From Solwaraspora sp. WMMD406 (GTDB lineage: Bacteria; Actinomycetota; Actinomycetes; Mycobacteriales; Micromonosporaceae), in NCBI RefSeq assembly GCF_029626025.1, contig NZ_JARUBF010000001.1, positions 310,001 through 374,000 of the forward strand: 64,000 nucleotides of DNA, given 5' to 3'. The notes beneath the pieces are model-generated. The model ran no database searches and was not told the DNA's origin. It saw only the letters and a program-made list of their open reading frames with translations. Shown here one piece after another: positions 2,520-51,315 of the stretch (position 1 is the first letter of the stretch; each line of letters starts with the position of its first letter). A program made the translations under genes and the position numbers.

Positions 2520-2673
2520 GCCGGTTTCCCCGTCCTGCCCGTACCGGCCGGTCGCCCGTGCGTCGTACGGACGGTTCTCAATGTTGCCGTCAGGGGTTAG
2601 TTTTGTCGTGCCGGCCCGGACGTGGGCGCTCGATGGTGGATGGGGTCGGGACCGAGGACGAACGGGGAGACCG

Positions 2674-3291
2674 ATGGGCGACGAGTGGCTCGTCGACGAA
2701 CAGATCGACGTCGATATTCAAAAGTTGCAGGACTTCGCCACCAGCATCCGGGAGGAGCTGGAAACCAACTTCGCTCCGAGCCTGGCCGCCGGCATCCGGC
2801 CGATGCTGACGGAGCCGATCCCCACCGATCCCACCTGGTCGGAGAGCCAGCTCTTCGTGTCCCGCCACGACGAGTCGCGGCAGGCGATCGGACAGCTGCT
2901 CGGCGACGTGGCGCGCGGCATGGCCGCGCTGAGCACGGCGGCCATGTCGATCTCCGCCGAATATCTCGCCGGCGACGCGTTCTCCCAAGCCACCAACCAG
3001 GACGTGTTGCGGGCGTTCAGCGGCATCGAGGGGCAGCAGACGCTCGACGACTACTGGCAGCAGGAGGACAGTGCCGAGAACGACCCGGCGAACGTGGTCC
3101 CGGCGGAGCTGACCGACCCGGAGCACTACTTCGGCGAGAACTCCTCGGGCACCTCCGGTCCTGACGGCGGAACCCCGGCGCTGTACCAGGAAACGGTGAT
3201 CGCCGAGGGCGAGACGGGTGAGTACGTCATCCCCGCCGATCAGGAGGACATGCACGACTCTCGGTTCGACACCCCGGACTACCAGGCTTGA
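2674..3291 (+). CDS. ESX-associated small helical protein (WXG100-like)
   Basis: A 205-residue, mostly helical acidic protein encoded between EccC and a proline-rich ESX protein. The ATG is preceded by a clear GGGGAGA ribosome site; an in-frame start 31 codons upstream would add an unlikely basic tail. Residues 1-110 look like the two-helix fold of WXG100/PE-type substrates: a TWSES turn, then a long Ala-rich helix. The tail (about 115-205) is acidic, disordered and rich in Gly, Asp and Glu. There is no classic W-x-G triplet, so membership is inferred from fold pattern and context. It is probably a secreted substrate or a partner of the downstream protein, with which it is presumably co-transcribed (27-nt gap). 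Confidence 0.6.
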   Translation: MGDEWLVDEQIDVDIQKLQDFATSIREELETNFAPSLAAGIRPMLTEPIPTDPTWSESQLFVSRHDESRQAIGQLLGDVARGMAALSTAAMSISAEYLAGDAFSQATNQDVLRAFSGIEGQQTLDDYWQQEDSAENDPANVVPAELTDPEHYFGENSSGTSGPDGGTPALYQETVIAEGETGEYVIPADQEDMHDSRFDTPDYQA

Positions 3292-3318
3292 CCACGGTTG
3301 ACGCAGTGAGGGACGACA

Positions 3319-5046
3319 ATGGGTGACGACTACTTCGGATACCGGTACGTGCCCCTGCCGATGTACGCCGGTGTCTCCGACGACTATCTGGAGATTGACC
3401 ACTCCGACCCCAACCGGGTCTACGATCCGACGTCGTACGACAACGTCGACATCGAAACGATGTGGCGGTGGGTGCAGAAGCAGAGCGACGAACGTGCCGG
3501 CTCCCTGGCCGACATGTGGCGCCGGGCGAGCACCCTGTTGCAGAGCACCCGGGACAATCTGCACCGGCACGCGAACGCGTTGGCCGCCGCGTGGACCTCA
3601 CCGGCTGGCGAGTTGTTCTTGCACAAGGTCGGCGCCGCGATCTACTCGCTGGATCAGTGGCGGGAGGCCGCGGACAACAACGCCCGTGGCCTGGACCTCA
3701 TCCGCGACAGGATCAAGTCAACTCAGGAAGAGTTCATCCCGCTCTACGAAAACTACCTCGCCGAGCAGCGCGCACAGGAAGCGAAGCGCAGCGCCGACGA
3801 AGGCATCCAGTTGGGCGACCTGTTCGGCATCAACAACGGCAAGACCATCGACGAGGTCAAAGAGGAATTCCACGAACGGGCCAAGAACCTGGTCAAGCCG
3901 TTGGGTGACATGTTCGTCGACACCTACCTGGACTACATCTCCCGAGGCACCACCTACCAGGGTCCGACCAACGCGGTCGTCACCTACCCGGGCGACGTGC
4001 CGACTCCGGTGCCGCCGCTGGCCGGACCGGGCGCGCCCCCCGGACTGCCGGGCGGCCTCGGCGGCGGTGCCGGGCCGGCACCCACCCGCCCGGACCTGAC
4101 CGGCTCCGAGCTGACCGGGCCGCCGCGCCCGCCCGGGTCACCGCCCCCGCTGCCCGACGGAGTGGGACTGGCCGGCGGCACCGTCGCCCCGCCGGCGCCG
4201 GGGCCGGCACCCGCCGCCCCGCAGGTGACCCCGCCGGCCGCGGCACCGCCCCCGAGCCCGGTGGTGCCGCCGGTGCCACCGCCGGCCGCTCGACCGGGCA
4301 CCCCGCTCACCCCGCAGGCCACCCGGCCGACCGCGCCCGGGACACGACCGGCCACCCGACCAGCGGCACCACCTCGACCGACCCTGCCCGGAGTCAGCGG
4401 ACCCGGCGGTGGAGCCGGTCCCGCCGCACCCGGCTCGGCGCGGCGAGGTACGCCGCCCGCCCGCCCGACTCTGCCCGGCACCAGCGGGGCACCGGGAACA
4501 CCAGGCCGGCCGGCCGCCCCCGGCTCCGGCCGAGCGGCCGGCCGGGGTGCCACACCCGGCGCGCCGCAACTGCCGGGCAGCACCGCCGGTCGACCCGCCC
4601 GTCCCGGCGGCCGGGTCGGGCGGAGTCCCGTCCCGCCGCCCAGCCTCGGCGGCTCGTCCGGCGCGGTCCCGCCCGGCGGTGCCGCCCGACCCGGTACCGG
4701 TGGCCGGCCGACCAGCCCGGGGCAACCGGGCCGTCCCGGCACCCCCGGCACCGGAACACCCACCCCGGGTGGTCGGGGCACCGGGCGGGCCAGTCTCCCC
4801 GGCCGGGGCGGGCCGGGAGCCCAACCACCCGGCCGGAGTGCCGGTCCGGCACCCGCTCTCGGCGGTCGGCGCGGCGAAACCCCTCGGACCCGGCCGACCC
4901 GGACCGGTGACACCGAGCCGGACACCTGGCGGTACGGCGACGGCGACGACGAGCTGTGGCAGACCGACCAGGCGCCCAAGGGCAGCATCGACACGCCGGA
5001 CGAACACCGGCCCAAGGATCAGGGACGGACGCTCGGCCAGAGCTGA
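3319..5046 (+). CDS. Large WXG/PPE-like type VII substrate with long Pro/Gly-rich tail
   Basis: A 575-residue protein. Residues 1-210 are helical and include WTSPAGELF, which resembles the WXG turn of ESX substrates, flanked by long charged helices. From about residue 225 to 530 the chain is almost wholly Pro, Gly, Ala, Arg and Thr, so it must be disordered. It ends with a short acidic segment. This head-plus-tail plan resembles PPE or EspB-like exported proteins. The ATG follows a GTGAGGGA ribosome site. The extreme composition makes long spurious reading frames on the other strand. Its place between the 205-residue helical protein and MycP suggests it is a main substrate or structural partner of this secretion system. 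Confidence 0.6.
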   Translation: MGDDYFGYRYVPLPMYAGVSDDYLEIDHSDPNRVYDPTSYDNVDIETMWRWVQKQSDERAGSLADMWRRASTLLQSTRDNLHRHANALAAAWTSPAGELFLHKVGAAIYSLDQWREAADNNARGLDLIRDRIKSTQEEFIPLYENYLAEQRAQEAKRSADEGIQLGDLFGINNGKTIDEVKEEFHERAKNLVKPLGDMFVDTYLDYISRGTTYQGPTNAVVTYPGDVPTPVPPLAGPGAPPGLPGGLGGGAGPAPTRPDLTGSELTGPPRPPGSPPPLPDGVGLAGGTVAPPAPGPAPAAPQVTPPAAAPPPSPVVPPVPPPAARPGTPLTPQATRPTAPGTRPATRPAAPPRPTLPGVSGPGGGAGPAAPGSARRGTPPARPTLPGTSGAPGTPGRPAAPGSGRAAGRGATPGAPQLPGSTAGRPARPGGRVGRSPVPPPSLGGSSGAVPPGGAARPGTGGRPTSPGQPGRPGTPGTGTPTPGGRGTGRASLPGRGGPGAQPPGRSAGPAPALGGRRGETPRTRPTRTGDTEPDTWRYGDGDDELWQTDQAPKGSIDTPDEHRPKDQGRTLGQS

Positions 5047-5235
5047 CGACACGGCACCCGGTCGCCCCGTCGCGGGTGTCCGGGTCCGTACCATGCGATG
5101 AGAGACACCCGGCGACGAGCGACCACCGTCGACGGTGGCGGTGCCGGTCGTCAACGGTGGCGGTGCCGATGGAGCCCTCGGCGGGCCGACCCGACCCCGG
5201 ACGCGGAGCCGGCGACGGACGGAAGGTGAGACTGG

Positions 5236-6474
5236 ATGCGTGGCCTGCGAGGCGCGGTGGCGCTGCTGTCGACACTCGCGGTCGGCCAGCTCGCCGCGAT
5301 CGCCGTGCTGCCCGCGTCGGCCCGGGCCGACGCGATCCGCGAGCAGGCCTGGCACCTGACCGCCCTCGAACTCGCCGAGCTTCACCAGCTCACCCAGGGT
5401 GAGGGCATCACGGTCGCGGTCGTCGACACCGGAGTCGACGCCAACCATCCCGACCTGGTCGGCAACGTCCTACCCGGTGTCGACCTGCACGACGACACCA
5501 CCCAGGGACAGGTCGACCGGCAGATCCACGGCACCGGCATGGCCTCCCTCATCGCCGGCCACGGTCACGGACCGGGCAACGGCGACGGTGTGCTCGGGAT
5601 CGCCCCCAAAGCCAGGATCCTGCCGATCACGGTCGTGCCGGAGCAGGGTCTGACCAGCTCCACGATGATCGCCGCCGGGATCAACTGGGCGGTCGACAAG
5701 GGCGCCGACGTCATCAACGTGTCCATGGCCACCGGAGGAGACCCGGATCTCGATGACGCGGTGGAACGCGCCTACCGCAGCGGGGTGGTGGTGGTCGCCT
5801 CGGTCGGTAACCGCGAGGACGTCCTGATCGCCGACCCGGCCCGCCATCCGGCGGTGATGGCGGTGACCGGCAGCGACCGGGCGGGCGGACTCGGCCCGGA
5901 GTCGATCCCGGCCGACGAAATCGCCCTGGCCGCGCCCTCGGTCGACCTGACGGCGGCCGCCCCGGGCGGCGGGTACGTCACGGTGACCAGCACCAGTGGT
6001 GCCACGGCGATCGTGTCGGGGGCGGTGGCGCTGGTCCGGGCCAGGTTCCCCGACCTGTCCCCGTACGACGTGTTCAAGCGGGTGTTGGAGACGACCACCG
6101 ACGCCGGACCGCCCGGCCGGGACCCCGACTTCGGATGGGGGGTGCTCGATCTGCGCCGGGCACTGACCGGGGAGCCGGACGGCCGCGCCGACGCCGCTGC
6201 CTCGCCGACCCCGACCGACAACGAGACCGCGTACGCCTGGGATCCGGGGACCGAGGACGAAAGGTGGTACTCGCTGGTCGTCCTGGTCGGGTTGCTGCTG
6301 GTGCTCGCCGTACCGGTGACCGGGGCCGTGCTGCTGCTGCGGTGGCGGCGACGACGCCGACGCGGCCGTTCCGACCAGCGGCCGGGTCCGGGAGGGGCGG
6401 CCGCGCCGACGCCGGCCGGATCCGCCCCGGGTAGGCCGGCGGACGACCGGGCATGGCGACGGCCGGCACCATGA
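5236..6474 (+). CDS. mycP: Mycosin, membrane-anchored S8 serine protease of the type VII system
   Basis: A subtilisin-family protease of the mycosin type, which stabilises ESX secretion complexes and trims substrates on the outer face of the membrane. It has an N-terminal signal peptide (residues about 1-32), Asp in VVDTGVD near residue 63, His in HGTGMASLIAG near residue 98, the Asn-region SVGN, and the Ser in STSGATA near residue 254. A single C-terminal transmembrane helix (about 342-365) is followed by an Arg-rich cytosolic end. The usual G-T-S-x-A around the nucleophile reads S-T-S-G-A here, so the Ser is kept but its Gly neighbour is changed. The last four bases overlap the next gene, implying coupled translation. 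Confidence 0.93.
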   Translation: MRGLRGAVALLSTLAVGQLAAIAVLPASARADAIREQAWHLTALELAELHQLTQGEGITVAVVDTGVDANHPDLVGNVLPGVDLHDDTTQGQVDRQIHGTGMASLIAGHGHGPGNGDGVLGIAPKARILPITVVPEQGLTSSTMIAAGINWAVDKGADVINVSMATGGDPDLDDAVERAYRSGVVVVASVGNREDVLIADPARHPAVMAVTGSDRAGGLGPESIPADEIALAAPSVDLTAAAPGGGYVTVTSTSGATAIVSGAVALVRARFPDLSPYDVFKRVLETTTDAGPPGRDPDFGWGVLDLRRALTGEPDGRADAAASPTPTDNETAYAWDPGTEDERWYSLVVLVGLLLVLAVPVTGAVLLLRWRRRRRRGRSDQRPGPGGAAAPTPAGSAPGRPADDRAWRRPAP

Positions 6475-6935
6475 GCGGGCCCACCGCCGACCCGCCGCCG
6501 GCCGGGGAGCCGGCGCGGCCAGGCCGGCGTCCACTCGCCGTCGTCTTCGCCGTACTGCTGATGGTGCCGGCGGCGGTGGTGTGGCTGATCGCCGGGGTGG
6601 GGTTCGTCGTCGCCACCGCCCGCAGCGAAGGCTCCTTCAAATGGCTCCTGTGGATCGTCGGGTTGGGGATCCTCGGCATCTGCCTGCTGGTGGTGGCGAT
6701 GACCCTGGCGGGGATGTGGCTCGCCTGGGCCGGTGACTCCAACGTGTTGCGGGTACCGGCCGGTTTCACCGTGGGGTTGTTCGTCGTCGTCCTGGTCACC
6801 CTGCTGGCGCAGGGGCGGCTCGACTACCAACCGACGATGACGACCCCGCTGGTGATCGGCACCCTCGCCGGGATCTCGCTGGTGCTGCTGCACACCCCGG
6901 CGGCCCGACGCTGGTTGGCCGCGCCATCGACCTGA
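6471..6935 (+). CDS. Small four-helix membrane protein coupled to mycP
   Basis: A 154-residue protein with a short Pro-rich cytosolic N-terminus and four hydrophobic stretches, each about 20 residues, that can span the membrane. The ATG at 6471 overlaps the mycP stop (ATGA), so translational coupling favours it over the in-frame ATG 18 bases upstream. I do not recognise a family. It is the last plus-strand gene before the inserted minus-strand block. Its coupling to the mycosin makes an accessory membrane role in the secretion machinery the simplest idea, but this rests on position alone. Confidence 0.65.
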   Translation: MSGPTADPPPAGEPARPGRRPLAVVFAVLLMVPAAVVWLIAGVGFVVATARSEGSFKWLLWIVGLGILGICLLVVAMTLAGMWLAWAGDSNVLRVPAGFTVGLFVVVLVTLLAQGRLDYQPTMTTPLVIGTLAGISLVLLHTPAARRWLAAPST

Positions 6936-6942
6936 CCGGTCG

Positions 6943-8289
6943 TCACGAGTCGGCCTGCGGCGGTGGCTCGGCACCTGGCGGGTCGGGCGGTAGCCAACGC
7001 CGTTCGGCGGCGTCGAACCGGGCGAGCGGCTCGTCCCCACCATCGCGGTCGATCTTGTGCAGGCCGGCACCGTCGGGCACCACGAACGATTCCATCCGCG
7101 GCGGCCCGTCCCACCAGCCCTGCTCGGTGGCGTCGGCGGGTGGCCAGCGCAGCACCACCGCCCAGTCGTCGTCGGCCCGGAACGGCGACCCGTCCCCGAG
7201 CAGGTCGAGTCGCTCGTAGAGCCGTCGCGGCGTCTCCCGCCCGGTCCCCCACCAGCGGTGCACCAGGCCAGCGACCCGGTCGTACCCCTGGTCGAGATAG
7301 GACCGGACGTAGCGGTGCGGGACCACCACCTGCAGCATCGGCGGCGCCGCCGGGTCCGGTCCGGCGGCGGCCGGCTCGCCGTCGGTGCCAGCGCCCGGCG
7401 CGCCCGGCGCGAGTGTCGTCTCCGGCGGCCCGTCGGCGAGCAGCCGCTGGCGCTCCTCGTCGACCGCCTCGGTCAACGCGGTCCGCAACCCGTCCAGCCA
7501 TCCGTGCAGCGCCTGAACGGACTCACCCGGGATGCTCGCGGCCAGCGGGGTTCCGGGGTTGAGCATCAGCTGCCAGCTCGGATCCGGCCACGCCCCCGCG
7601 AGCTGCACACTGCTGAGGACGACGAAGTCATGATCGCCGAGCACCTGCCGCAGCCGCTGCTCGGAGGTGAACACCGGCAGACTCGGCTCGCCGGCCGCGT
7701 CCGGCAGGCACCACCAGGGAAAATCCGGATCGGTGACGTCGCGCGAAGCGGAACCGTCCGGGGCCAGCGGGACCACCAGCTCCGAGCGCAGCAGCGCGGC
7801 TGTCAGCGCGTCCGGGTCCTGCCCGTCGATCGCCGCGCGCAGTTCCTCCTCGCCGGGCACCGGGCCGGTCGCCGCGCCGACCGTCGGGCCGGTCGCCGCG
7901 AGCCGGGCCAGTTCCGCGCCGGAGACCCGGGCACCGATCGGCAGACCCGGATCGACCGCCAACCACCACTGTGGGTCTTGCCACCAGGAAGCGAGGTCGG
8001 TGATGCTGACCAGCCGGTATTCGACCCGCTGCCCCGGCAGACAGGCCGCGATCGCCTCCGGCGAGGTGAACGCCAGCACATGGGTCTCGCCGTCGAGCCG
8101 CGCGGTAGGCCAGGCCGCCGGAGACACCCCGCCGTCGGTCTCCGGTGGCGGCACCGGGAGCAGCAGCGGACCCGAGGCCAGGGCGGTGAGGTACGCCTGC
8201 CGGTCGTCGCCGCAGGCCAGCATCGCCCGCTCCGGGTCGGTGACCGGCTGCCAGTGATCGGTCACCCGGATGCCGTCCTGGCCGGTCAC
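6943..8289 (-). CDS. SseB-domain protein, two copies of the domain
   Basis: A 448-residue soluble protein. Two segments (about 15-150 and 175-300) follow the SseB N-terminal domain pattern: a short LLVP-type strand, a conserved Phe/Thr-S run such as VLAFTSPEA or LPVFTSEQR, and then a W-x-L-x-L/V-N/D-P-G-x-P strand, seen twice as WWLAVDPGLPIG and WQLMLNPGTPLA. A third region carries the basic C-terminal part. The domain is named for a Salmonella type III protein but is widespread in actinobacteria, where its job is unclear. The GTG start overlaps the stop of the SUKH-3 gene (GTGA), so it is the third cistron of a tight operon with a deaminase and an immunity-like protein. Confidence 0.8.
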   Translation of the reverse strand: MTGQDGIRVTDHWQPVTDPERAMLACGDDRQAYLTALASGPLLLPVPPPETDGGVSPAAWPTARLDGETHVLAFTSPEAIAACLPGQRVEYRLVSITDLASWWQDPQWWLAVDPGLPIGARVSGAELARLAATGPTVGAATGPVPGEEELRAAIDGQDPDALTAALLRSELVVPLAPDGSASRDVTDPDFPWWCLPDAAGEPSLPVFTSEQRLRQVLGDHDFVVLSSVQLAGAWPDPSWQLMLNPGTPLAASIPGESVQALHGWLDGLRTALTEAVDEERQRLLADGPPETTLAPGAPGAGTDGEPAAAGPDPAAPPMLQVVVPHRYVRSYLDQGYDRVAGLVHRWWGTGRETPRRLYERLDLLGDGSPFRADDDWAVVLRWPPADATEQGWWDGPPRMESFVVPDGAGLHKIDRDGGDEPLARFDAAERRWLPPDPPGAEPPPQADS

Positions 8290-8771
8290 CAGGTGCCGTC
8301 CGACGCGACACGGGCCGGCTGGACGCCGAGCACCAACGCGGTGATCGCCTGGTCCAGGTCGTCGCCGAAAAACCAGTCCCCGCCGTGGTCGAGAACGAAG
8401 ACCCGCCCGGTGGCGTCGATCGCCAGGATGCCGGTGTCCGCGCCCTCCACCCCCAGTGGACTCAGCGGTACGCCCACCGCGTCGGCCAGCCCGGCCAAGG
8501 TGGCCACCGAATGGACCGCCCGAAACGGATCGAAGTCGACATCGCCGGGGGCGATCTGCTCGCCCTCGCCGGCGGGCCGCAGCCGCAGGCCACCGAACTC
8601 GGCGTACGCCCGGATCGCGGCCGGTCCCACCAGGTGGTGGCGGCCGTCCGCGCCGACGTACGCGGCGATCCGCACCGCCCAGTCCCGGCCCCGCTCGTCG
8701 TCGCGGTAGCCCGGATGCCACCCGGCGGCGACCAGGGCCTCGACGACTACTGTCGGAAAACGGTCGGTCAT
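8286..8771 (-). CDS. SUKH-3 family immunity-like protein
   Basis: A 161-residue protein with the SUKH-3 pattern: an opening helix with AAGWHPGYR, a central YAEFGGL motif, and a late GILAIDATGRVFVLDHGG strand pair followed by a helix. SUKH proteins are known mainly as immunity partners that neutralise nuclease and deaminase toxins of contact-dependent and polymorphic toxin systems. The ATG overlaps the stop of the upstream deaminase by four bases (ATGA), and its own stop overlaps the SseB-domain gene. Toxin first and immunity second is the usual order, so binding and inhibition of the deaminase is the expected role. That pairing is inferred, not shown. Confidence 0.85.
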   Translation of the reverse strand: MTDRFPTVVVEALVAAGWHPGYRDDERGRDWAVRIAAYVGADGRHHLVGPAAIRAYAEFGGLRLRPAGEGEQIAPGDVDFDPFRAVHSVATLAGLADAVGVPLSPLGVEGADTGILAIDATGRVFVLDHGGDWFFGDDLDQAITALVLGVQPARVASDGTW

Positions 8772-9157
8772 TCCAGCACCTCGACTCCGAACCACTCCAG
8801 CAGAGCGGCACAGGACCGGCACGGCACCAGCGCGGTGCCGTGGACCGGGTCGCCGGGCTCCCGGATCCGGGTGAGGCGCACTCGTGCTCCCCACAGTGCC
8901 GCGCGGGCGGCGGTGGGAGTGAGTGCGGCCGCGCCCCCGTCGGACTCGGCCGCGTACAGCCGATCGGACAGCAGCACCGGTTCGGCGCACCATCCGGTGA
9001 ACCGCTCCCGCTGCCCGTTCGGCAGGTCGTCCAGGAACCGTGCCACCAGGGGATGCAACCGGGGCCGCTGATCGCCACGGACGGAGGTGTGGGTGTGGAC
9101 CGTCCCCCCGATCAGCAACGCGCCCGCCGCCAGCGGCAGCATCCTGGCCTCGGTCAC
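8768..9157 (-). CDS. YwqJ-type nucleic-acid deaminase domain protein (putative toxin)
   Basis: A 129-residue protein that fits the YwqJ branch of the cytidine-deaminase fold. The zinc site is visible as WCAEP (Cys and catalytic Glu) and PCRSCAALLEWFGVEV (the P-C-x-x-C pair) near the C-terminus. In this family the domain is normally the C-terminal warhead of a large exported toxin; here it stands alone with only about 45 residues before the CAE motif. The GTG start is preceded by a strong GGAGGGG ribosome site, so truncation by a mis-set start is unlikely. It is first in an operon with a SUKH-3 immunity-like gene, inside a type VII secretion locus, and could be its cargo. Confidence 0.8.
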   Translation of the reverse strand: MTEARMLPLAAGALLIGGTVHTHTSVRGDQRPRLHPLVARFLDDLPNGQRERFTGWCAEPVLLSDRLYAAESDGGAAALTPTAARAALWGARVRLTRIREPGDPVHGTALVPCRSCAALLEWFGVEVLE

Positions 9158-9208
9158 GCCCGCCCCCTCCAGGTCCGATGCCGACGGGGCAAGACTAGTC
9201 GGGCAGGC

Positions 9209-10654
9209 TCACACCGGTGGGCCGCTGCTGCACGTGACGTTGACGGTCTGGCTGTTTCGGGCACCACCGGCGTTTCCCGCGACCAGATGGATCGGATAGC
9301 TTTGACCGACGACGCACCCGAAGTACAGCGGGTTCGTCGACTCCGCCGGGAGGCCGGACACGAACCAGCCGGAGATGGTGACCGTACGCGAGACGGTCGC
9401 CGAACACCGGATCGAACTCGCGAACGATTCGCAGGAGATCGACGGCTGCTCGGGCGGGCTGGGGAACGGCGCGAGCCACGCCGTCCGCATGACGTTGGGC
9501 GAGCCAGGCCCTGGGTCGACGACCTGCCCCGTGGCGGCCCCTGCCATGACACCCGCCCGCACCTGGGCGGGGGTGGCGGTCCGATTGCTGGACAGATACA
9601 TCGCGGCGAGCGCCGCGATGTGCGGCGCGGCCATCGAGGTGCCGCTGAGCGCCATGGTCGCGGTGGTGCTCGTGTGCCAGGCGGAGCGTACGGACACGCC
9701 TTGCGAGAAGATGTCGAGGCAGCTGCCGTAGTTGGAGAAGAACGCGCGCTGACCGTTGCCGTGCGTCGCGCCGACGGTGATGGCGGCGGGAACCCGGGCG
9801 GGCGACTGCGCGCACGCGTCGATGGCGTCGTTGCCGGCGGCGACGACGTAGGTGATGCCACTCGCGATCGAGTTCTGCACCGCCTGGTCGATGGCGGGGC
9901 TGGCAGGGCCGCCCAGGCTCATGTTGGCGATCGCCGGGCCGCTGCGATGGGCGGTCACCCAGTCGACACCGGCCACGACGCTGGCCGTGGTGCCGAAACC
10001 GGCACAGTCCAGGACCTTCACCGCCACCAGTTGAGTCCGGGAGGCACTCCGCCGCTCGCTGAAGTCGCCGCCGACGATGCCCGCGACGTGTGTCCCGTGG
10101 CCGTCACAGTCGGTGTTCGCGCCGCCGATGGTGTTGGTGCCCCAGATCGGCGTGGGACCGCCCAGTGCGGAATGGGTGGTCAGGATGCCGGTGTCGAGGA
10201 CGTAGGTGGTCACCCCCAGACCCAACGGCGGCACCGGAAGACCGGGTCGGTTGGGGCCGGCCACCCCTCCCACAGCCGGCGTCAGCCGCTGCGGGCGGGG
10301 GCCCGAAGGACGGGAACGCCCTGAATCGACGCCACGGAAGCGTCGGTTCTGTTCCACGAACGCCACGTCCGGGTGCGCCGCGAGCTGGCGCGCCTGCCGC
10401 TCGTCCATCCTGGCGGCGAATCCGCGTACGGTGGATCGGAAGGTGTGGGAGATGGCGAGAGACGCCGAACGGGCCAGGTCGACCTTTCGCGAAGCTGACG
10501 GCTTGTAGACGACCAGGTAACTGTCGTCGATCGCGTCCGCCGCGCCGAGTCCGTGGATGGCACCGGTCAGCTCGGCCGCCGCGGGTCGCCCGACCGCGCC
10601 CACCAGACTGGCCGCGACGGCTCCCGCGAGGAGGACACTCAACGTACGTCTCAT
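9209..10654 (-). CDS. Secreted subtilisin-like protease (proteinase K group)
   Basis: A 481-residue exported S8 peptidase. It has a typical signal peptide (residues 1-28, ending RPAAA), an inhibitor-I9-like propeptide starting YLVVYKPSAS, and then the catalytic domain. Catalytic residues are visible: Asp in VLDTGI, His in DGHGTHVAG, the oxyanion Asn in VVAAGND, and Ser in LSGTSMAAPH. A Cys-containing beta-rich C-terminal extension of about 95 residues follows. The upstream GGAAA site and signal peptide fix the ATG; a longer in-frame start would bury the signal sequence. It lies just upstream of the deaminase operon on the same strand with a 51-nt gap, so read-through is possible. A generic extracellular protease is the conservative view. 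Confidence 0.9.
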   Translation of the reverse strand: MRRTLSVLLAGAVAASLVGAVGRPAAAELTGAIHGLGAADAIDDSYLVVYKPSASRKVDLARSASLAISHTFRSTVRGFAARMDERQARQLAAHPDVAFVEQNRRFRGVDSGRSRPSGPRPQRLTPAVGGVAGPNRPGLPVPPLGLGVTTYVLDTGILTTHSALGGPTPIWGTNTIGGANTDCDGHGTHVAGIVGGDFSERRSASRTQLVAVKVLDCAGFGTTASVVAGVDWVTAHRSGPAIANMSLGGPASPAIDQAVQNSIASGITYVVAAGNDAIDACAQSPARVPAAITVGATHGNGQRAFFSNYGSCLDIFSQGVSVRSAWHTSTTATMALSGTSMAAPHIAALAAMYLSSNRTATPAQVRAGVMAGAATGQVVDPGPGSPNVMRTAWLAPFPSPPEQPSISCESFASSIRCSATVSRTVTISGWFVSGLPAESTNPLYFGCVVGQSYPIHLVAGNAGGARNSQTVNVTCSSGPPV

Positions 10655-44584: not shown

Positions 44585-45835
44585 TCAGGAACCCGCACCG
44601 AGCAGGTCGGCCAGCGCCGCCAGCTCCTGGCTCACTGGCCGACGGCGGCGGGTCAGGATCGTGGTGACGATGTCCCGGGCGTACCGCTGGTGTCTCAACC
44701 AGGTCGGCGACTTCGCGCGGAGCCCGGACAGGATGCGCGTCGCTTCGACCAGGTCGCCGCGTTCGGCGTTGGCCCAGGCACGGTCGAGTTGGTGGCGATT
44801 ACGGTTATCCGACGTCGCCCGACCGCTGCCCGGCGGTACGCGCTCCGCCAACGCGAGCGCCGTGACGGGATCGCCGGCCACGACCGACATCTCGACTCGC
44901 TTCATCTCCACGGTCACCGGGCAGAAGGCACCCATGGTCACCGGCATGCGGATAGCCGCGTCGGCGGGAAGATGCTCGCCGATCCGGGCCGCTGCCGCGC
45001 TCGCGGCGTCGAGCATTTCTCCGGCGTCGTCGGCGCGACCATCGCGGATGGCGGCGGCCGACCCGCGCAGCATGAGCCAGCCCCAGACCGCGAGCCGGGT
45101 CGGGTCCGTACGGGAAAAGCGTGGCTCCACCGCGTCCGCCGTGGCGACAGCCAACCGCTCTGCCTCGTCGAACCGCCCCTGCCGGAGCAACAGCCAGCAC
45201 ATCGTGGTGACGACTGACGCGGCGACCAGTTCGTTGCCGGACTCGTCCGCGACGTCGAGCGCGAGACTCAGCGCAAGGTAGGCAAGGTCGAAACGCCGGA
45301 GCTGGATCAAGGTCGTCCCGGCGATCTGGTACGCCTGAGCGAGCTGCCCCGCGCTGGCGACCTGCTCATCGCCGCCACTCGCGTCGACAAGGCTGCGAGC
45401 TGCACTGATCAGCACCGGCAACCGGGCCAGCGCGCTGGCGTAATCGTCACCATGGTAGATCCGATCGATCTCGGCAATCGATGTCTGCAGCTCACGCACT
45501 GTCGGCGGATCTGCCGAGACTGCACTGACGGTCATCCCGCTCAAGCCACGGGCCGGAGTCAGCGCCCGTCGTAGCAGGCCAACCGCGATCTCGTCGTAAT
45601 CGGAGCCGACCCCGGCTGCCGTACCAGCGCCGGCAGGCCCGACTAGTACGGATGTCGGTACGGCAAGCGCAGCGGCGATTGCCCGCAAGGTCGACATCCG
45701 TGGTGACTCCGGCTTGTTCTGCTCCAGCTTCTGGATCGTCTCGACCGCAAGCCCGGCAGCCTCCGCCAACTGCTCCTGAGTGAGTCCCCTGAGTCGACGT
45801 AGCCGCCCTACGTTGTCGCCCACCGTCGAGCTCAT
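44585..45835 (-). CDS. XRE-family regulator with TPR-like domain
   Basis: A 416-residue regulator. Residues 5-65 form an XRE HTH (VGRLRRLRGLTQEQLAEAAGLAVETIQKLEQ). From about residue 110 onwards the chain is all-helical with tetratricopeptide-like pairs (AYQIAGTTLIQLRRFDLAYLALSLALDVA, LLLRQGRFDEAERLAVATADAV). This plan is common in actinomycete regulators that may sense peptides, as Rgg/PlcR-type TPR regulators do in Firmicutes. It is divergent from cutA, the micropeptide and the methyltransferase, with 139 bp between, and is the natural candidate to control them. Confidence 0.85.
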   Translation of the reverse strand: MSSTVGDNVGRLRRLRGLTQEQLAEAAGLAVETIQKLEQNKPESPRMSTLRAIAAALAVPTSVLVGPAGAGTAAGVGSDYDEIAVGLLRRALTPARGLSGMTVSAVSADPPTVRELQTSIAEIDRIYHGDDYASALARLPVLISAARSLVDASGGDEQVASAGQLAQAYQIAGTTLIQLRRFDLAYLALSLALDVADESGNELVAASVVTTMCWLLLRQGRFDEAERLAVATADAVEPRFSRTDPTRLAVWGWLMLRGSAAAIRDGRADDAGEMLDAASAAAARIGEHLPADAAIRMPVTMGAFCPVTVEMKRVEMSVVAGDPVTALALAERVPPGSGRATSDNRNRHQLDRAWANAERGDLVEATRILSGLRAKSPTWLRHQRYARDIVTTILTRRRRPVSQELAALADLLGAGS

Positions 45836-45974: not shown

Positions 45975-46307
45975 ATGAGCGACTATTTACAGGTGTCGAC
46001 CGCAGTCGAGACGCGCGATGCGGCAGTAGCCCTTGCCCGATCGGCAGTGGGTGCTCGCCTGGCCGCCAACGCGCAGGTGGTCGGTCCGGTGATCAGCGTC
46101 TTCTGGCACCTGGGCAGTCAAGGTGAGGGCGAAGAGTGGCAGGTGCTACTCAATACCACGGCAGCCCGCTACGAAGACCTGGAGCGCCACCTACTCGCAC
46201 ATCATCCCTGGCAGAATCCGCAAATCACGGCTACCGCAATCGTGGCAGGATCGGCAGCGTGTCTGGAGTGGCTTCGATCGTCGACAGGCGACGCCGCGCC
46301 GGGCTGA
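45975..46307 (+). CDS. cutA: CutA1-like protein
   Basis: A 110-residue protein matching CutA1 over its length: an opening VSTAVETRDAAVALARSAVGARLAANAQV, the central SVFWHLGSQGEGEEWQVLLNTTAARYEDLERHL, and the closing NPQITATAIVAGSAACLEWL. CutA1 forms very stable trimers and has been linked to divalent-metal tolerance, but its role is unsettled. The usual metal-binding Cys/His of the family are weakly kept. It is the first of three closely packed genes with a Gly/Lys micropeptide and a methyltransferase. Confidence 0.82.
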   Translation: MSDYLQVSTAVETRDAAVALARSAVGARLAANAQVVGPVISVFWHLGSQGEGEEWQVLLNTTAARYEDLERHLLAHHPWQNPQITATAIVAGSAACLEWLRSSTGDAAPG

Positions 46308-46310
46308 GCT

Positions 46311-46379
46311 GTGGTTCCCGGAGGCGGCGGCAAGCGCAGCGGTGGTAGCGGCGGCGCGGGCGGAGGCAAGAAGAAGTGA
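46311..46379 (+). CDS. 22-residue Gly/Lys-rich micropeptide between cutA and the methyltransferase
   Basis: A 22-codon ORF opens with GTG three bases after the cutA stop. Its TGA shares bases with the GTG start of the methyltransferase (GTGA). The peptide starts MVPGGGGKRS and ends GGGKKK, so it is over half glycine with a triple-Lys tail. Tight packing on both sides, in frame with neither neighbour, argues for real translation. It could be a substrate of the methyltransferase, a leaderless RiPP-like precursor, a signal for the TPR regulator, or only a translational coupler. No family is known to me. Confidence 0.5.
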   Translation: MVPGGGGKRSGGSGGAGGGKKK

Positions 46380-47500
46380 TCAAGCAGCAAACTCGCCTAC
46401 TCGACGAGTTGGCGGCCGCCGGGCGGCTTTCGGAAGCCTGGCGGCCCCACTTCGAACGGGTTCCGCGTCATGAGTTCGTACCCGAGATCGCTTGGTTCGG
46501 CTGGGACAACCGGGTGATCTCCCGCGCCGACGAGCCGGACGCATGGTTCGACGCCGCGTACGCAGATGGGCCGATCGTGACGCAGTTCGATGACGGGAAG
46601 GTGTTGCCCGGCAGCGTACCCGGGCTGTCGCCGTCAAGTTCCCTGTCTATGCCGAGGATCGTCGCGCGCATGCTGGACGCCGCGATGATCGTCGACGGCA
46701 TGCGCGTACTGGAGATCGGCACAGGTAGCGGCTGGAGCGCGGCCCTGCTCGCCGACCGGCTCGGCGACGCGAACGTGACAACCGTCGAGATCGACACGAC
46801 GATCTTGCGTGCGGCGCAGCAGGCGTTACGACAGGCGGGCTACGCACCGACCACGGTCGCGGCCGATGGCACCGGGGGTTACGCCGCTCACGCTCCCTAT
46901 GACCGCGTGCTCGCCACCTGTTCCGTGTACCGCGTCCCGCCCGCGTGGATCGCTCAAACGCGGCCGGGCGGGTACATCGTGACGCCGTGGCGTCTCGCGA
47001 TGCCGAGCGGCCTGCTCGTTCGCCTTCAGGTCGACGAGGACGGTGCGGCTTCGGGTTCGTTCGTCTGCCCGGCGTGGTTCATGGTGACGCGCAACCAGCG
47101 CCGGTCAACCGACCAGGTGCCGATGACCAGCCCGGCGCTTGACGGTCGTACCAGTCTCCGGCGCGGCGAGGTCTTCCAGAACGAGTCGGCTCAGTTCGCT
47201 GTCGCCGTGCTCGTGCCGAACTGCGACCAATGGACCGACAGTGACGACGCCGGTGTGACCGTACGGCTTGACGATGTCGCCTCGGGCTCGTGGGCGGCGG
47301 TCACCTACGGCGACGAATCCGGTGACGACTTCGCCGTCCGCCAAGGCGGTCCACGACGGCTCTGGGACGAGGTCGAGGCAGCCTACGCCTGGTGGCAGGA
47401 TGCCGGTCGGCCCGAGTACACCCGGTTCGGCTTGACAGTCGACGGCACGACACAGCGCCTCTGGATCGATGAGCCAGCAACCGTAGTCGCCAACGTGTGA
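46376..47500 (+). CDS. PCMT-like SAM methyltransferase (peptide-maturase type)
   Basis: A 374-residue protein with a class I methyltransferase core related to protein-L-isoaspartate O-methyltransferase. The PCMT pre-motif region SSSLSMPRIVARMLDAA comes before SAM motif I VLEIGTGSGWSAALLADRLG near residue 107, and motif II/III regions follow (VTTVEIDTTILRAA, YDRVLATCSVYRVP). An about 150-residue C-terminal extension follows. This long form resembles the methyltransferases that accompany ATP-grasp-modified and FxLD-type peptide clusters. No ATP-grasp or dehydratase gene is nearby. It is coupled to the Gly/Lys micropeptide. Confidence 0.82.
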   Translation: MIKQQTRLLDELAAAGRLSEAWRPHFERVPRHEFVPEIAWFGWDNRVISRADEPDAWFDAAYADGPIVTQFDDGKVLPGSVPGLSPSSSLSMPRIVARMLDAAMIVDGMRVLEIGTGSGWSAALLADRLGDANVTTVEIDTTILRAAQQALRQAGYAPTTVAADGTGGYAAHAPYDRVLATCSVYRVPPAWIAQTRPGGYIVTPWRLAMPSGLLVRLQVDEDGAASGSFVCPAWFMVTRNQRRSTDQVPMTSPALDGRTSLRRGEVFQNESAQFAVAVLVPNCDQWTDSDDAGVTVRLDDVASGSWAAVTYGDESGDDFAVRQGGPRRLWDEVEAAYAWWQDAGRPEYTRFGLTVDGTTQRLWIDEPATVVANV

Positions 47501-47560
47501 AGCCCAAAGACCGCTCATCACCGCCGCCGCTGGTGGTGCCGCCGAGGCGACGATGCAGCG

Positions 47561-50431
47561 TTATGCCAATGCCGGTACGGGCTCGCCAACCAACGTACGG
47601 AGCGCCTGATACGCCTCGTCCGCTGCTGGCAGGTTTTCGGCGTCGTGCTCATCGCCGGGAGACCGGCTGCAATAGGCGGCAAGAGCTACGACGATCGCTT
47701 CGGCACTTGCTGGATGCTGACGAGCAAGCGCAACCAGAGTACGCCCCACTTCGGCTCGCAACGATCGGTCTTCTTCCGCGAATAGCGGCACCAACCTGTC
47801 GATGGCGTCGTCCGTAGGCGGACCTTGCCGCAGTGCCCCCACCGCCCGCGCCCGCGCCCGCGGATCGACGCCAGGGTCCACCACGATCCCCACCGCCGCC
47901 TCCACCACCTCCGACGACCACAACCCGCCCGCCTGCAACGCCCCCGCCGCGCATGCACGCATCGGCACCCTGAAACCAGCATCTGCGAGGGCTGCCAGTG
48001 CCGTGGCGACGTACGGGGAATGTGGCCCGGGGGATGCCGTGACAGCGGCGAGTTCGACGAACGCTTTGGGCAGCGTCTCGGCGAGTGTGGAAGCCTGCTG
48101 ATCCAGGATTACGCGGAAACGGTCGCCGGCCTTGGTACCGGCGAGGCCGCGCAGTCGCTCGGACAAGACCTCGCGGTAGCCACGAAAACGGCATCGGCTG
48201 GTCTCGGGGGTCAGCCATTCGTCAATCGCGTGGTGTAGCACCGTGTCGATGGTCGCCGTCTGTAGCGGGGTGTCGTCGGCGAGGACGCGAAGCATGAACA
48301 GGAAGTCACGGCCCAGCAGGTCTTCGTACCGGCTCGGGGCGGCGGTCGCGGGCCAGATCGCCTCCGCCACGACGGTCTCGATCTGCTCGGTGTAGTCGGT
48401 GCCGATCAGTCCCAGCGCGAGCAGGATCGGCTCGTCGTAGCGGGGGTCGTGCAGCCGGCTGCGGATCGCTGCGATCCGCTCCTCGGCGGTGCCGCGAAAC
48501 GCCAAGGCGCGGCCGGCGTAGTACTCCTCGAACGTCAGGTGCGGAAACCCGTACCGGCCGGGTGCCCGCTCGATGAGCAGCCCGGTGTGCCGGTCGGCCT
48601 TGTCGACGAACTCGATGACCCCGACGCCGGCATCCGTACTCAGTGGATCGGCGGCCTCCACCACGGTCGGGTCCCACTCGACGCCGTGATGCTTAGCCCA
48701 CAGTGGACCCAGCACCGTCAGCAGTTCCAGCTGGCTGGCCGCACCCTCGGGCCGATGCTCGTGCATCCAGAAACCCAACTCGGTCAGCCAGCGGGTCAGC
48801 ATCCGCTCGTCCGGCAGGTCGGCCGCGGCGACGCCTTGCGCGGTGCGCCAGGTCCGGCCCAGCGCGTTGCACACCTCGATATAGGCCTCGACCCGCCGGT
48901 GCGGCAGCCGGCCGCTGGCCCGATGCACCAGCACCAACGCGGTCAGCAGCAGCGGGTTCGCCGCCAATCGCCGTACCCCCGGGTTGGTTGCCAACGCCTC
49001 GCGGATCGCTGCGGCTTCCTGCTGCCCGGCCTGGACGATCGCCGGGTCGCTCTTGTCCGGAGTCTCGGCCCGCTCCACCTCCCGGCAATACACCTCCAGG
49101 AACCTGTCGATCGTCTCCTGGTCCATGTCCTGCAACCGCACCGCCACGAACGGCTCCGGCAGCGGCGCGGCCGAATAGCCGGCGATCCGGCTGGTCACCA
49201 CGAACCGGTTGCCGTGCCGCGCGTACGCGGTGACGAACCGGGTCACCGCCTCCACCACACCCCGGCGCAGCTCGGCCGAGGCGATCTCGTCCAGGCCGTC
49301 GAGCAGGACCAGGCACCGGCCGGCGTCCAACTCCCGCCGCAACAGATCGGCAAGACCAGCGGTACGGCACTCCAACCGGTTGAGGTAGCCCGGCAGGAAC
49401 TCGCCGATGCCCTGCTCCGGGTAGCCCTGCCGGGCGTAGTCGCCGATCCGCAGATAGATCGGGAAACGCGCCGGTTTCCCCTGCACCGGATTGCCCGAGG
49501 CCAGCGCCAGTGCGTGCGTGAGCGCGAGGTGCTTCAGCAGGGTCGTCTTGCCGGTCCCCGGATCCCCCAGGACCAGCGACTGGGCGTTGGTGCGGACCGC
49601 GTCCAACACCGGTGCCGGCTGCGCGCGGTCTGGCTCGTCCGCGACGTCGAACCGGCGGCCGGCCTGCAGGTGCAACCGGTCCAGGGCCGCCTCGAACCCG
49701 GTGGCGTCGAGCCGCCCCGACTCGACCATCGCGGCCAGCTTGTCGCGTTCCTGCTCGAACCAGAGCCTGGCCCGATCGCCGGGGTGCTTTTCCGGCCGGG
49801 CACTCAATCCGACGAACACCTCGGCCAGCGGCAACTGCACTGTCGTATTGCGCACCACGCCCACGGTCCGCAGATAGCGGTGCTGGTCGGCCAGCCAGCG
49901 CAGGTAGGCGATCAGGTCGTCCTCGTCGGCCGCGCCGGCCCCCGCGTGCCTGGCCAGCTGGGTCGCCGCCCGCGCGGTGTCCGCGGCGTCCGTCCGCCCC
50001 AACACCTCCTGCAGTACGGCCTCCGCCCGCACCTCGACCGACAGCTCGTCCAGCAGTGTCGTGAACACCGGCCGCAGCAGGACGATTCGGTCGAGCCGCT
50101 CGTCCTCCGACGCCTGCGGTCCCAACGAGTCGACGGCCCGCCGCGCCAGTGCGGCGGCGGAGGCTGCCGTACCCGGGACCAGGACCTTCGCCAGCTCCTC
50201 CGCGCCCTCGTGCGTCCAGAAGCCCGCGTTGACATCGAAGTCGGCCAGCCGGCGGCCATGACGTTTCTCGACGGTCGCGAACGCCCGCGCCAACGCCCGC
50301 GCCAGGGCCTTCTGCTCCGGGTCACCGAAGATCCGCGCCCGCACCCCCTGCGTCGCGGAACCGGCCAGCTGCTTGGCCGCTGACGTAATGATCGACTCTG
50401 CCACCGGCACCAGCATCGACACAGGATCCAC
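47561..50431 (-). CDS. NACHT-domain STAND ATPase with HEAT-like C-terminus
   Basis: A 956-residue protein. Residues 1-270 are a helical N-terminal domain with a TVQLPLAEVFVGLS strand block. The NACHT NTPase follows: Walker A GDPGTGKTTLLKHL near 288, Walker B LVLLDGLDEIA near 376, and sensor-region VVTSRIAGYS. A winged/helical segment contains the conserved FPHLTFEEYYAGRAL. Residues about 720-956 form a HEAT-like array. Bacterial NACHT proteins of this plan are known antiphage sensors of the STAND class. There is no separate effector domain such as a nuclease or TIR at the N-terminus that I can name. A leaderless promoter drives it. Confidence 0.9.
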   Translation of the reverse strand: MDPVSMLVPVAESIITSAAKQLAGSATQGVRARIFGDPEQKALARALARAFATVEKRHGRRLADFDVNAGFWTHEGAEELAKVLVPGTAASAAALARRAVDSLGPQASEDERLDRIVLLRPVFTTLLDELSVEVRAEAVLQEVLGRTDAADTARAATQLARHAGAGAADEDDLIAYLRWLADQHRYLRTVGVVRNTTVQLPLAEVFVGLSARPEKHPGDRARLWFEQERDKLAAMVESGRLDATGFEAALDRLHLQAGRRFDVADEPDRAQPAPVLDAVRTNAQSLVLGDPGTGKTTLLKHLALTHALALASGNPVQGKPARFPIYLRIGDYARQGYPEQGIGEFLPGYLNRLECRTAGLADLLRRELDAGRCLVLLDGLDEIASAELRRGVVEAVTRFVTAYARHGNRFVVTSRIAGYSAAPLPEPFVAVRLQDMDQETIDRFLEVYCREVERAETPDKSDPAIVQAGQQEAAAIREALATNPGVRRLAANPLLLTALVLVHRASGRLPHRRVEAYIEVCNALGRTWRTAQGVAAADLPDERMLTRWLTELGFWMHEHRPEGAASQLELLTVLGPLWAKHHGVEWDPTVVEAADPLSTDAGVGVIEFVDKADRHTGLLIERAPGRYGFPHLTFEEYYAGRALAFRGTAEERIAAIRSRLHDPRYDEPILLALGLIGTDYTEQIETVVAEAIWPATAAPSRYEDLLGRDFLFMLRVLADDTPLQTATIDTVLHHAIDEWLTPETSRCRFRGYREVLSERLRGLAGTKAGDRFRVILDQQASTLAETLPKAFVELAAVTASPGPHSPYVATALAALADAGFRVPMRACAAGALQAGGLWSSEVVEAAVGIVVDPGVDPRARARAVGALRQGPPTDDAIDRLVPLFAEEDRSLRAEVGRTLVALARQHPASAEAIVVALAAYCSRSPGDEHDAENLPAADEAYQALRTLVGEPVPALA

Positions 50432-50439
50432 GACCGGCG

Positions 50440-50466
50440 AGTATAGGCAGCACCGTCCACTGTCAC
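50440..50466 (-). promoter_or_regulatory. Leaderless promoter of the NACHT gene
   Basis: Read on the minus strand, TATACT (50445-50440) is a near-consensus -10 whose start point falls at or next to the GTG at 50431. GTGACA (50466-50461) is a fair -35, 15 bases further up. No ribosome site precedes the GTG. Confidence 0.6.
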
Positions 50467-50568
50467 TATCGTGAGGCGTTCTCGTATTCGTTGCCTACCT
50501 GCGGCCAAGCTGACCGTTGACGCCCATTCCGGTGGCGGGTCGGCGCTGGGGTCGGCAGGATCATGGGC

Positions 50569-51315
50569 ATGAGCACCGAACCGGACCGGTACGCCGTCGG
50601 CTCACTGCGGGCCGTGGCGCTCGACGCCCCCGACATCGAGCGCCTGGCCACCTTCTACGAACAGCTCGCCGGCTGGCAACGCCTCCCCACCGACGACGAT
50701 GACGCCGACTGGATCACGCTCGTCACCGACGACGGCTGGCGGATCGGCCTGCAACAGGCACTCGACCACGTACCGCCGAACTGGCCCGGCCAGGACCGGC
50801 CGCAACAGGCCCACCTCGACTTCCAGGTGTCGGACATCGACGCGGCGGCCGAACGCGCCCGGCAGCTCGGTGCCAGACTGCTCCGCCGCAACGAACAGTG
50901 GCACACCCTCGCCGACCCGGCCGGCCACCCGTTCGACCTGTGCGTCAAAGCCGACGAGCCACGCACCCTCCTCGCGGGTGTCATGCTCGACTGCCCCGAC
51001 GCCAAGACGCTGAGCCACTTCTACGCCGAACTACTCGGCAAACCGGTCACCTACGAAGCCGACGGGATCGCCATGATCGGCGAAGAAGGCGGGCAGCCCG
51101 TCCTGTTCCAGCAAGTCGAGCAGTACGCCGCACCCCGCTGGCCGGATCCGGCGTACCCGCAGCAGCTGCACCTCGACGTCCTGGTCCAGGACGTCGACGC
51201 CGCCGAACGGGCCGCCCTCGACCTCGGCGCCACCCGGCTCGACGGCGCCGGCCCCGACTGGCGCGTCTACGCCGACCCCGCCGGCCACCCCTTCTGCCTG
51301 GTCTGGTCGGCCTGA
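50569..51315 (+). CDS. VOC-family (glyoxalase-fold) protein, two modules
   Basis: A 248-residue protein with two vicinal-oxygen-chelate modules (residues about 12-125 and 130-248). Each begins with a helix-strand unit (LDAPDIERLATFYEQLAGW, LDCPDAKTLSHFYAELLGK) and ends in a G-H-P-F strand (DPAGHPFDLCV, DPAGHPFCLVW). Metal-type His are present in AHLDFQV and LHLDVLV. VOC proteins include glyoxalases, dioxygenases and antibiotic-binding proteins; the substrate is unknown. AGGA spacing favours the ATG at 50569 over one two codons upstream. Confidence 0.85.
   Translation: MSTEPDRYAVGSLRAVALDAPDIERLATFYEQLAGWQRLPTDDDDADWITLVTDDGWRIGLQQALDHVPPNWPGQDRPQQAHLDFQVSDIDAAAERARQLGARLLRRNEQWHTLADPAGHPFDLCVKADEPRTLLAGVMLDCPDAKTLSHFYAELLGKPVTYEADGIAMIGEEGGQPVLFQQVEQYAAPRWPDPAYPQQLHLDVLVQDVDAAERAALDLGATRLDGAGPDWRVYADPAGHPFCLVWSA

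Follow-up and report, generated by a model that had tools for sequence, protein, structure and literature searches.

A 22-codon open reading frame (ORF) directly upstream of a methyltransferase gene in Solwaraspora sp. WMMD406 is very probably the surviving 3′ end of a precursor gene of the imiditide/type I pamtide class; the gene has lost its front, and the enzyme is intact. The ORF lies in a 64,000-nt stretch of genomic DNA, here termed the window. As described in PMC10787088 and PMC13001092, imiditides, or type I pamtides, are a class of RiPPs in which a standalone PIMT-like enzyme is combined with a small, linear precursor rich in Gly, Pro, Asp and Lys; the enzyme methylates a single Asp to yield an aspartimide, which can then hydrolyse. 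The locus in the window is a degenerate member of this known class, a broken locus and not a working imiditide. We file it as such because the ORF contains no Asp, whereas a precursor of this class would have at least one, conserved near Pro or Gly, as does the precursor of a congener, G004. A remnant that has lost the front and all Asp residues cannot serve as a substrate of the known kind.

The ORF opens with GTG and encodes MVPGGGGKRSGGSGGAGGGKKK (22 residues, among them 11 Gly, 4 Lys and 1 Arg). It begins 3 nt beyond the TGA of cutA (46305–46307), and its own TGA (46377–46379) overlaps the GTG of the methyltransferase (46376–46378) in the sequence GTGA, which confirms the position, length and gene order given in the earlier note. 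No Shine–Dalgarno-like stretch was found before the GTG of the ORF with the patterns used. Within the 3′ part of the ORF, by contrast, a GGAGG can be read from the sequence 9 nt before the methyltransferase GTG. The features of the locus are collected in Table 1.

Table 1 Features of the remnant locus and its neighbours in the window
Feature	Coordinates	Strand	Basis or remark
XRE/TPR regulator; context	44585..45835	-	Adjoins cutA in G003, G005 and G006 too
cutA, 110-residue CutA; not part of the peptide system	45975..46307	+	Pfam CutA1, E 1.3e-20
Junction sequence from the cutA stop to the precursor remnant; source of the non-ancestral GTG	46308..46319	+	Congener cutA 3′ ends compared
22-codon ORF	46311..46379	+	3 junction codons followed, very probably, by the final 19 codons of a precursor gene of the imiditide/type I pamtide class
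Precursor tail kept, GGGGKRSGGSGGAGGGKKK, and stop	46320..46379	+	54/60 nt identical to G004; no Asp; blastn block from 46318
GGAGG inside the remnant, likely methyltransferase Shine–Dalgarno	46362..46366	+	Read from the sequence
Intact RiPP-type protein L-aspartyl O-methyltransferase (PAMT), 374 residues	46376..47500	+	TIGR04188, PCMT Pfam, tree
WXXXGXP motif of RiPP-associated PIMTs, WQDAGRP, residues 340–346	47393..47413	+	Motif from PMC13001092
NACHT NTPase; context	47561..50431	-	Missing from the G005 site
Glyoxalase-like gene, bounding the insertion site on the right; context	50563..51315	+	Congener comparison

Only two of the seven genus genomes carry the methyltransferase (E up to 1e-60), that of the window and G004, and the two enzymes are identical at 336 of 374 residues (90%). 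In G004, a full precursor of 46 residues, MGKHGQDSDGNKPGGYDPNKIVDPGKTGGGGKHSGGSGGSGGGKKK, is encoded directly upstream of the methyltransferase with the same GTGA overlap, and its GTG is preceded by a Shine–Dalgarno-like stretch. The window ORF aligns without gaps to the last 19 codons of this precursor, with 54 of 60 nt identical when the stop is counted and 2 of 19 residues changed. A comparison of the window with the G004 regions by blastn gave one block that runs across the gene pair (window 46318–47502, 91.5% nucleotide identity) and has abrupt edges, beside cutA at the left and just past the methyltransferase at the right; the tail has diverged at 6 of 60 nt, to about the same degree as the enzyme gene. 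Junction sequence without homology to G004 makes up the three opening codons of the window ORF, its GTG included. The sequence had been described as unlike known precursors, a view that does not survive the homology of its last 19 codons to the end of the imiditide/type I pamtide precursor of G004. As G+C-rich DNA yields many short open frames, the ORF could in principle be a chance open frame without history, but with 19 of its 22 codons aligning gaplessly to the end of a congener's precursor we regard this as exceedingly improbable: chance origin is refuted for the tail and holds for the three opening codons, the start codon included.

Among close relatives, the intact form is represented by G004 only, at a locus that is itself rearranged. 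With the gene in only two genus genomes, the short form might be the ancestral one and the front a gain in G004. However, precursors of many other loci have a front like that of the G004 peptide (MGKH..DG.K), including the precursor of L036 (MAKHDTTGDGHKKGIDPSRITKPKDDRGKHSGGDQGGKGGKK), the best other homologue by score among the matches listed (51%), and the match of the window breaks off abruptly beside cutA, both of which make an ancestral short form very unlikely. No precursor of the G004 type was found elsewhere in the genome of the window in a single search with the G004 peptide (E up to 10), which is sensitive to that type and not to other sequence types; it returned seven places, with the remnant as the sole close match (E 0.07, 86% identity). 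The place with the best E value (0.001, 36% identity, within a 548-residue open frame) was taken as low-complexity similarity. As a separate observation, the regions 669–6765 and 8126–9625 that adjoin the intact imiditide of G004 (L032, G004:C2) encode a TIGR03891 thiopeptide-type bacteriocin biosynthesis protein, a protein with an FxLD-methyltransferase domain over the cut-off and an ISKra4 transposase.

The cutA site was compared across the genus. Full cutA orthologues (85–94%) are present in four of the six other genus genomes (G003, G004, G005 and G006); G001 has a distant CutA only, and G002 a distant CutA and a partial match. All four orthologues stop at nearly the same place, without the tail. 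In G005, 244 nt separate cutA from the glyoxalase-like gene that comes next, and in G003 the gap past cutA holds a 187-nt stretch that matches the NACHT gene end at 69.5%. G006 has other genes past cutA (an ABC transporter-like pair, by eye), with no glyoxalase match within the stretch taken. In G004, cutA and the methyltransferase are on different contigs, the former separated from the regulator by an ISL3-type transposase and the latter beside a 56-nt fragment of the cutA 3′ end and the glyoxalase-like gene. On these sequence grounds, the tail is inserted, together with the methyltransferase and NACHT genes, between cutA and the glyoxalase-like gene. The coupling of the peptide to cutA, to which the earlier note had drawn attention, is incidental, because the congeners without the methyltransferase (G003, G005 and G006) have cutA at the same site. 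More generally, the interval downstream of cutA is variable across the genus (window 46308–50512 and L118–L121), with the methyltransferase and the NACHT gene occupying it in the window.

The tail and cutA share one frame across the cutA TGA, and another locus, L131, has the last precursor residues joined in frame to a Nudix ORF. Stop readthrough might thus extend CutA into the tail and make CutA a tagged substrate of the methyltransferase. Yet a shared frame has a one-in-three chance of arising, the four congeneric cutA orthologues end nearly alike without such a tail and, at L053, the gene upstream of the remnant (DUF397) is out of frame, leaving readthrough a highly improbable reading.

We propose that loss of the precursor front proceeded as follows. 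By analogy with characterised relatives, an intact system would produce a linear peptide of about 40 residues, often of the form M(G/A)KH..DG.K...(G/K tail), and the downstream PAMT would methylate one Asp, leading to aspartimide and then isoAsp. In the lineage of the window, a rearrangement or a deletion, the latter step being presumed, probably joined the end of cutA to the interior of the precursor gene. Such an event would have taken away the precursor start, the front half and all Asp residues, with the last 19 codons and the overlapping methyltransferase start as survivors. The likely remaining role of the remnant is to carry the ribosome-binding site and start overlap of the methyltransferase, which now lies downstream of cutA and would be transcribed from the cutA side.

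Alternatively, the 22-residue product might be a functional shortened peptide, in which the Gly/Lys tail recognised by the enzyme is kept for docking in free form, with a regulating or priming action on the methyltransferase. Such a role would fit the need for C-terminal precursor residues in characterised systems, where modification was spoiled when SpaA had its last 5 residues replaced or NmaA was shortened by its last 10 (PMC10787088 and PMC13001092), and only 2 of the 19 tail residues differ from G004. We nevertheless consider a docking peptide unlikely: the ORF has no Asp and no Shine–Dalgarno-like stretch before its GTG, its start codon is junction sequence, the need to keep the methyltransferase start also constrains its nucleotides and the tail has diverged like the enzyme gene. 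The remnant reading remains our preferred one. The earlier pointer to a RiPP, drawn from a peptide beside a PCMT-like enzyme, was sound, but the suggested new kind of peptide substrate is not borne out, as the ORF is the Asp-free tail of a known precursor class.

The methyltransferase itself gives a best NCBIfam match to TIGR04188 (349 bits, E 3e-104, nearly full length), under the cut-off of 380, and the G004 enzyme scores similarly (346 bits, also under the cut-off). The PCMT Pfam core of the window enzyme spans residues 87–207. The WXXXGXP motif near the C terminus, a mark of RiPP-associated PIMTs according to PMC13001092, is present in 48 of the 53 methyltransferases that we placed in a maximum-likelihood tree (midpoint root); no such motif occurs within the last 80 residues of the other five, of which one is shortened by an in-frame stop. 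In this tree, the window and G004 enzymes fall within a clade of 38 rows (support 98/96), which holds 28 peptide-associated rows, G004 included, and four Cys-type rows that form a clade of their own. Placed apart from it, with two unclear rows, are 13 ATP-grasp-associated rows, including L020, L040 and L042, whose ATP-grasp gene looks broken. The window enzyme has a GDESGDD stretch to set against the acidic loop DEDGD of NmaM, but an acidic C-terminal loop did not separate imiditides as a mark: the mean acidic excess is 0.6 in imiditide rows versus 1.5 in ATP-grasp rows.

We found no sign of relaxed selection or acceleration in the window enzyme, either in dN/dS (0.24 against G004) or in the branch counts. 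With L036 as outgroup, 11 changes fall to the window enzyme and 7 to that of G004, with 20 changes assigned to neither branch; when the outgroup is instead the majority letter across 27 peptide-associated rows, the counts are 4 and 8, with 26 assigned to neither. Elsewhere in the same genome, six other places resemble parts of the methyltransferase at 26–39% identity. A methyltransferase stretch was also matched with equal score at G000:C1 9870 and 7109750 (both on the plus strand), near both contig ends, where the best model was FxLD, under the cut-off for the piece scanned; the equal scores suggest that the contig is circular with overlapping termini or that one end is duplicated.

Comparisons to known systems place the locus with the imiditides/type I pamtides (NmaA–NmaM and SpaA–SpaM). 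Like theirs, the window enzyme is standalone and PIMT-like, with a C-terminal domain and WXXXGXP, and G004 has a Gly/Asp/Lys-rich, linear precursor immediately upstream with no maturase between; unlike them, the window retains only an Asp-free precursor tail, and the enzyme alone is intact. The type II pamtides/cysimiditides belong to the same larger enzyme clade and have the same two-gene layout, but neither the window ORF nor the G004 precursor contains Cys, and hence neither has the two CXXCXGXG motifs. The model that best matches the window enzyme among curated families, TIGR04188, is that of graspetide (ATP-grasp) methyltransferases; in contrast to a graspetide system, however, the score is below the cut-off, no TIGR04187 ATP-grasp maturase was found over its cut-off in the genome (best 24 bits versus 350) and the enzyme stands outside the ATP-grasp-associated clade. 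The FxLD lanthipeptide methyltransferases (TIGR04364) have a related PIMT-like domain, but the window enzyme reaches 127 bits versus a cut-off of 320, with a partial model alignment. An ATP-grasp or FxLD maturase is absent beside the ORF, in agreement with the earlier note, and no other RiPP maturase was found near the locus, where the nearest genes are cutA and the XRE, NACHT and glyoxalase-like genes. PADLOC returned nothing specific, the enzyme being a partial match to mad2 and the NACHT protein a weak match to mad8.

To place the locus among its relatives, we surveyed methyltransferase homologues more widely. The searches scored five candidates per genome, making the genome counts lower bounds: at least 11 of 354 genomes in the family search (E up to 1e-62) and at least 36 of 394 in the class search (E up to 1e-60). 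By eye, we classed 93 loci, namely the 53 tree rows and 40 of the 43 class-search places without a locus. There were 47 with a type I-like peptide, 11 of Cys type (two CXXC motifs in 10, one in L080), 14 in ATP-grasp context, 4 with a broken precursor (the window, L053, L056 and L131) and 17 with none or unclear. The 47 type I-like peptides, chosen by eye from listings without an Asp requirement, all contain Asp, and only that of G004 has none in its last 22 residues. Their mean length is 40, and their composition (G 20.6, P 16.0, D 11.4 and K 11.2%) can be compared with published values (G 17.3, P 16.8 and D 10.2%; PMC10787088). By a strict automatic test, which requires Asp, 41 of the 95 loci with a methyltransferase have such a peptide versus 1 of 207 control-set genes, and this single positive is the methyltransferase of G004 itself, a member of the control set by oversight. 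An ORF equivalent to that of the window, as sought upstream of homologous methyltransferases, thus does recur at 47 of the 93 loci, but as a full-length peptide with Asp and not as a short Gly/Lys one. At L145, L148, L150, L155 and L163, the methyltransferases are standalone and start in a similar way, and no peptide can be recognised ahead of them.

Besides the window, two loci have lost the precursor front and kept the tail. In L131 (G535), a 147-nt in-frame gap relative to L066 (G392) has removed the front, with the last residues left in frame behind the Nudix ORF. In L053 (G639), compared with L173 and L174, a DUF397 gene stands in place of the precursor front, and only NGGGKHERDDK is left. 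The precursor of L056 is frameshifted. Comparable damage is seen at graspetide-type loci, where, as judged from alignment ends against relatives, about 950 nt with most of the ATP-grasp gene are missing in L042/L050 (G209) and about 345 nt with part of that gene in L040/L048 (G254); in L020 (G018), a 52-codon open stretch of the ATP-grasp gene is left (by eye), and the methyltransferase gene and its start are intact. The methyltransferase is likewise intact in L053, L056, L131, L040 and L042, in the last two together with its start. Five loci (the window, L131, L053, L040 and L042) were tested in pairs, and their enzymes show ordinary purifying selection; pairwise dN/dS is 0.15–0.33 with a broken member versus 0.18–0.32 with intact upstream genes, and branch counts gave no clear sign of acceleration. 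In G392 itself (L066/L165), the Nudix-like ORF and the imiditide precursor share a stop-free frame, with an internal ATG and a Shine–Dalgarno-like stretch.

Such retention could mean that RiPP aspartyl methyltransferases outlive their own peptide through a peptide-independent use, for example by inactivating or repairing the related peptides of neighbours, as an orphan immunity gene. We put this forward as a doubtful proposal. It is based on three separate beheadings (the window, L131 and L053) and on two or more deletions in ATP-grasp genes (L040 and L042, with L020 as a possible third), all with intact enzymes. Among the genomes compared, L131 is broken in G535 only (intact in G392 and G774) and L053 in G639 only (intact in G787 and G797). 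Because each is confined to one genome with its nearest relatives intact, both beheadings look young, which speaks against an orphan use; the long-term retention of beheaded loci that would be expected was not found among the genomes compared. As all loci were found via the methyltransferase, the survey sees losses that spared the enzyme and not those that removed it too. Long-lived orphan enzymes are possible, and if a peptide-independent use is real, precursor loss with the enzyme start region kept would be a recurrent evolutionary step.

In the open-licence literature, beheaded precursors are not mentioned in the titles or abstract openings among the matches listed. The window and G004 provide a broken and an intact imiditide within one genus, and the loss of a precursor with the enzyme kept has occurred more than once in the imiditide/pamtide class of RiPPs. 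Beheaded loci may explain some of the 3653 PAMTs that the pamtide survey linked to no RiPP or modification system (PMC10787088, section 2.3). If orphan enzymes still act, they would bear on the biological role of aspartimide peptides.
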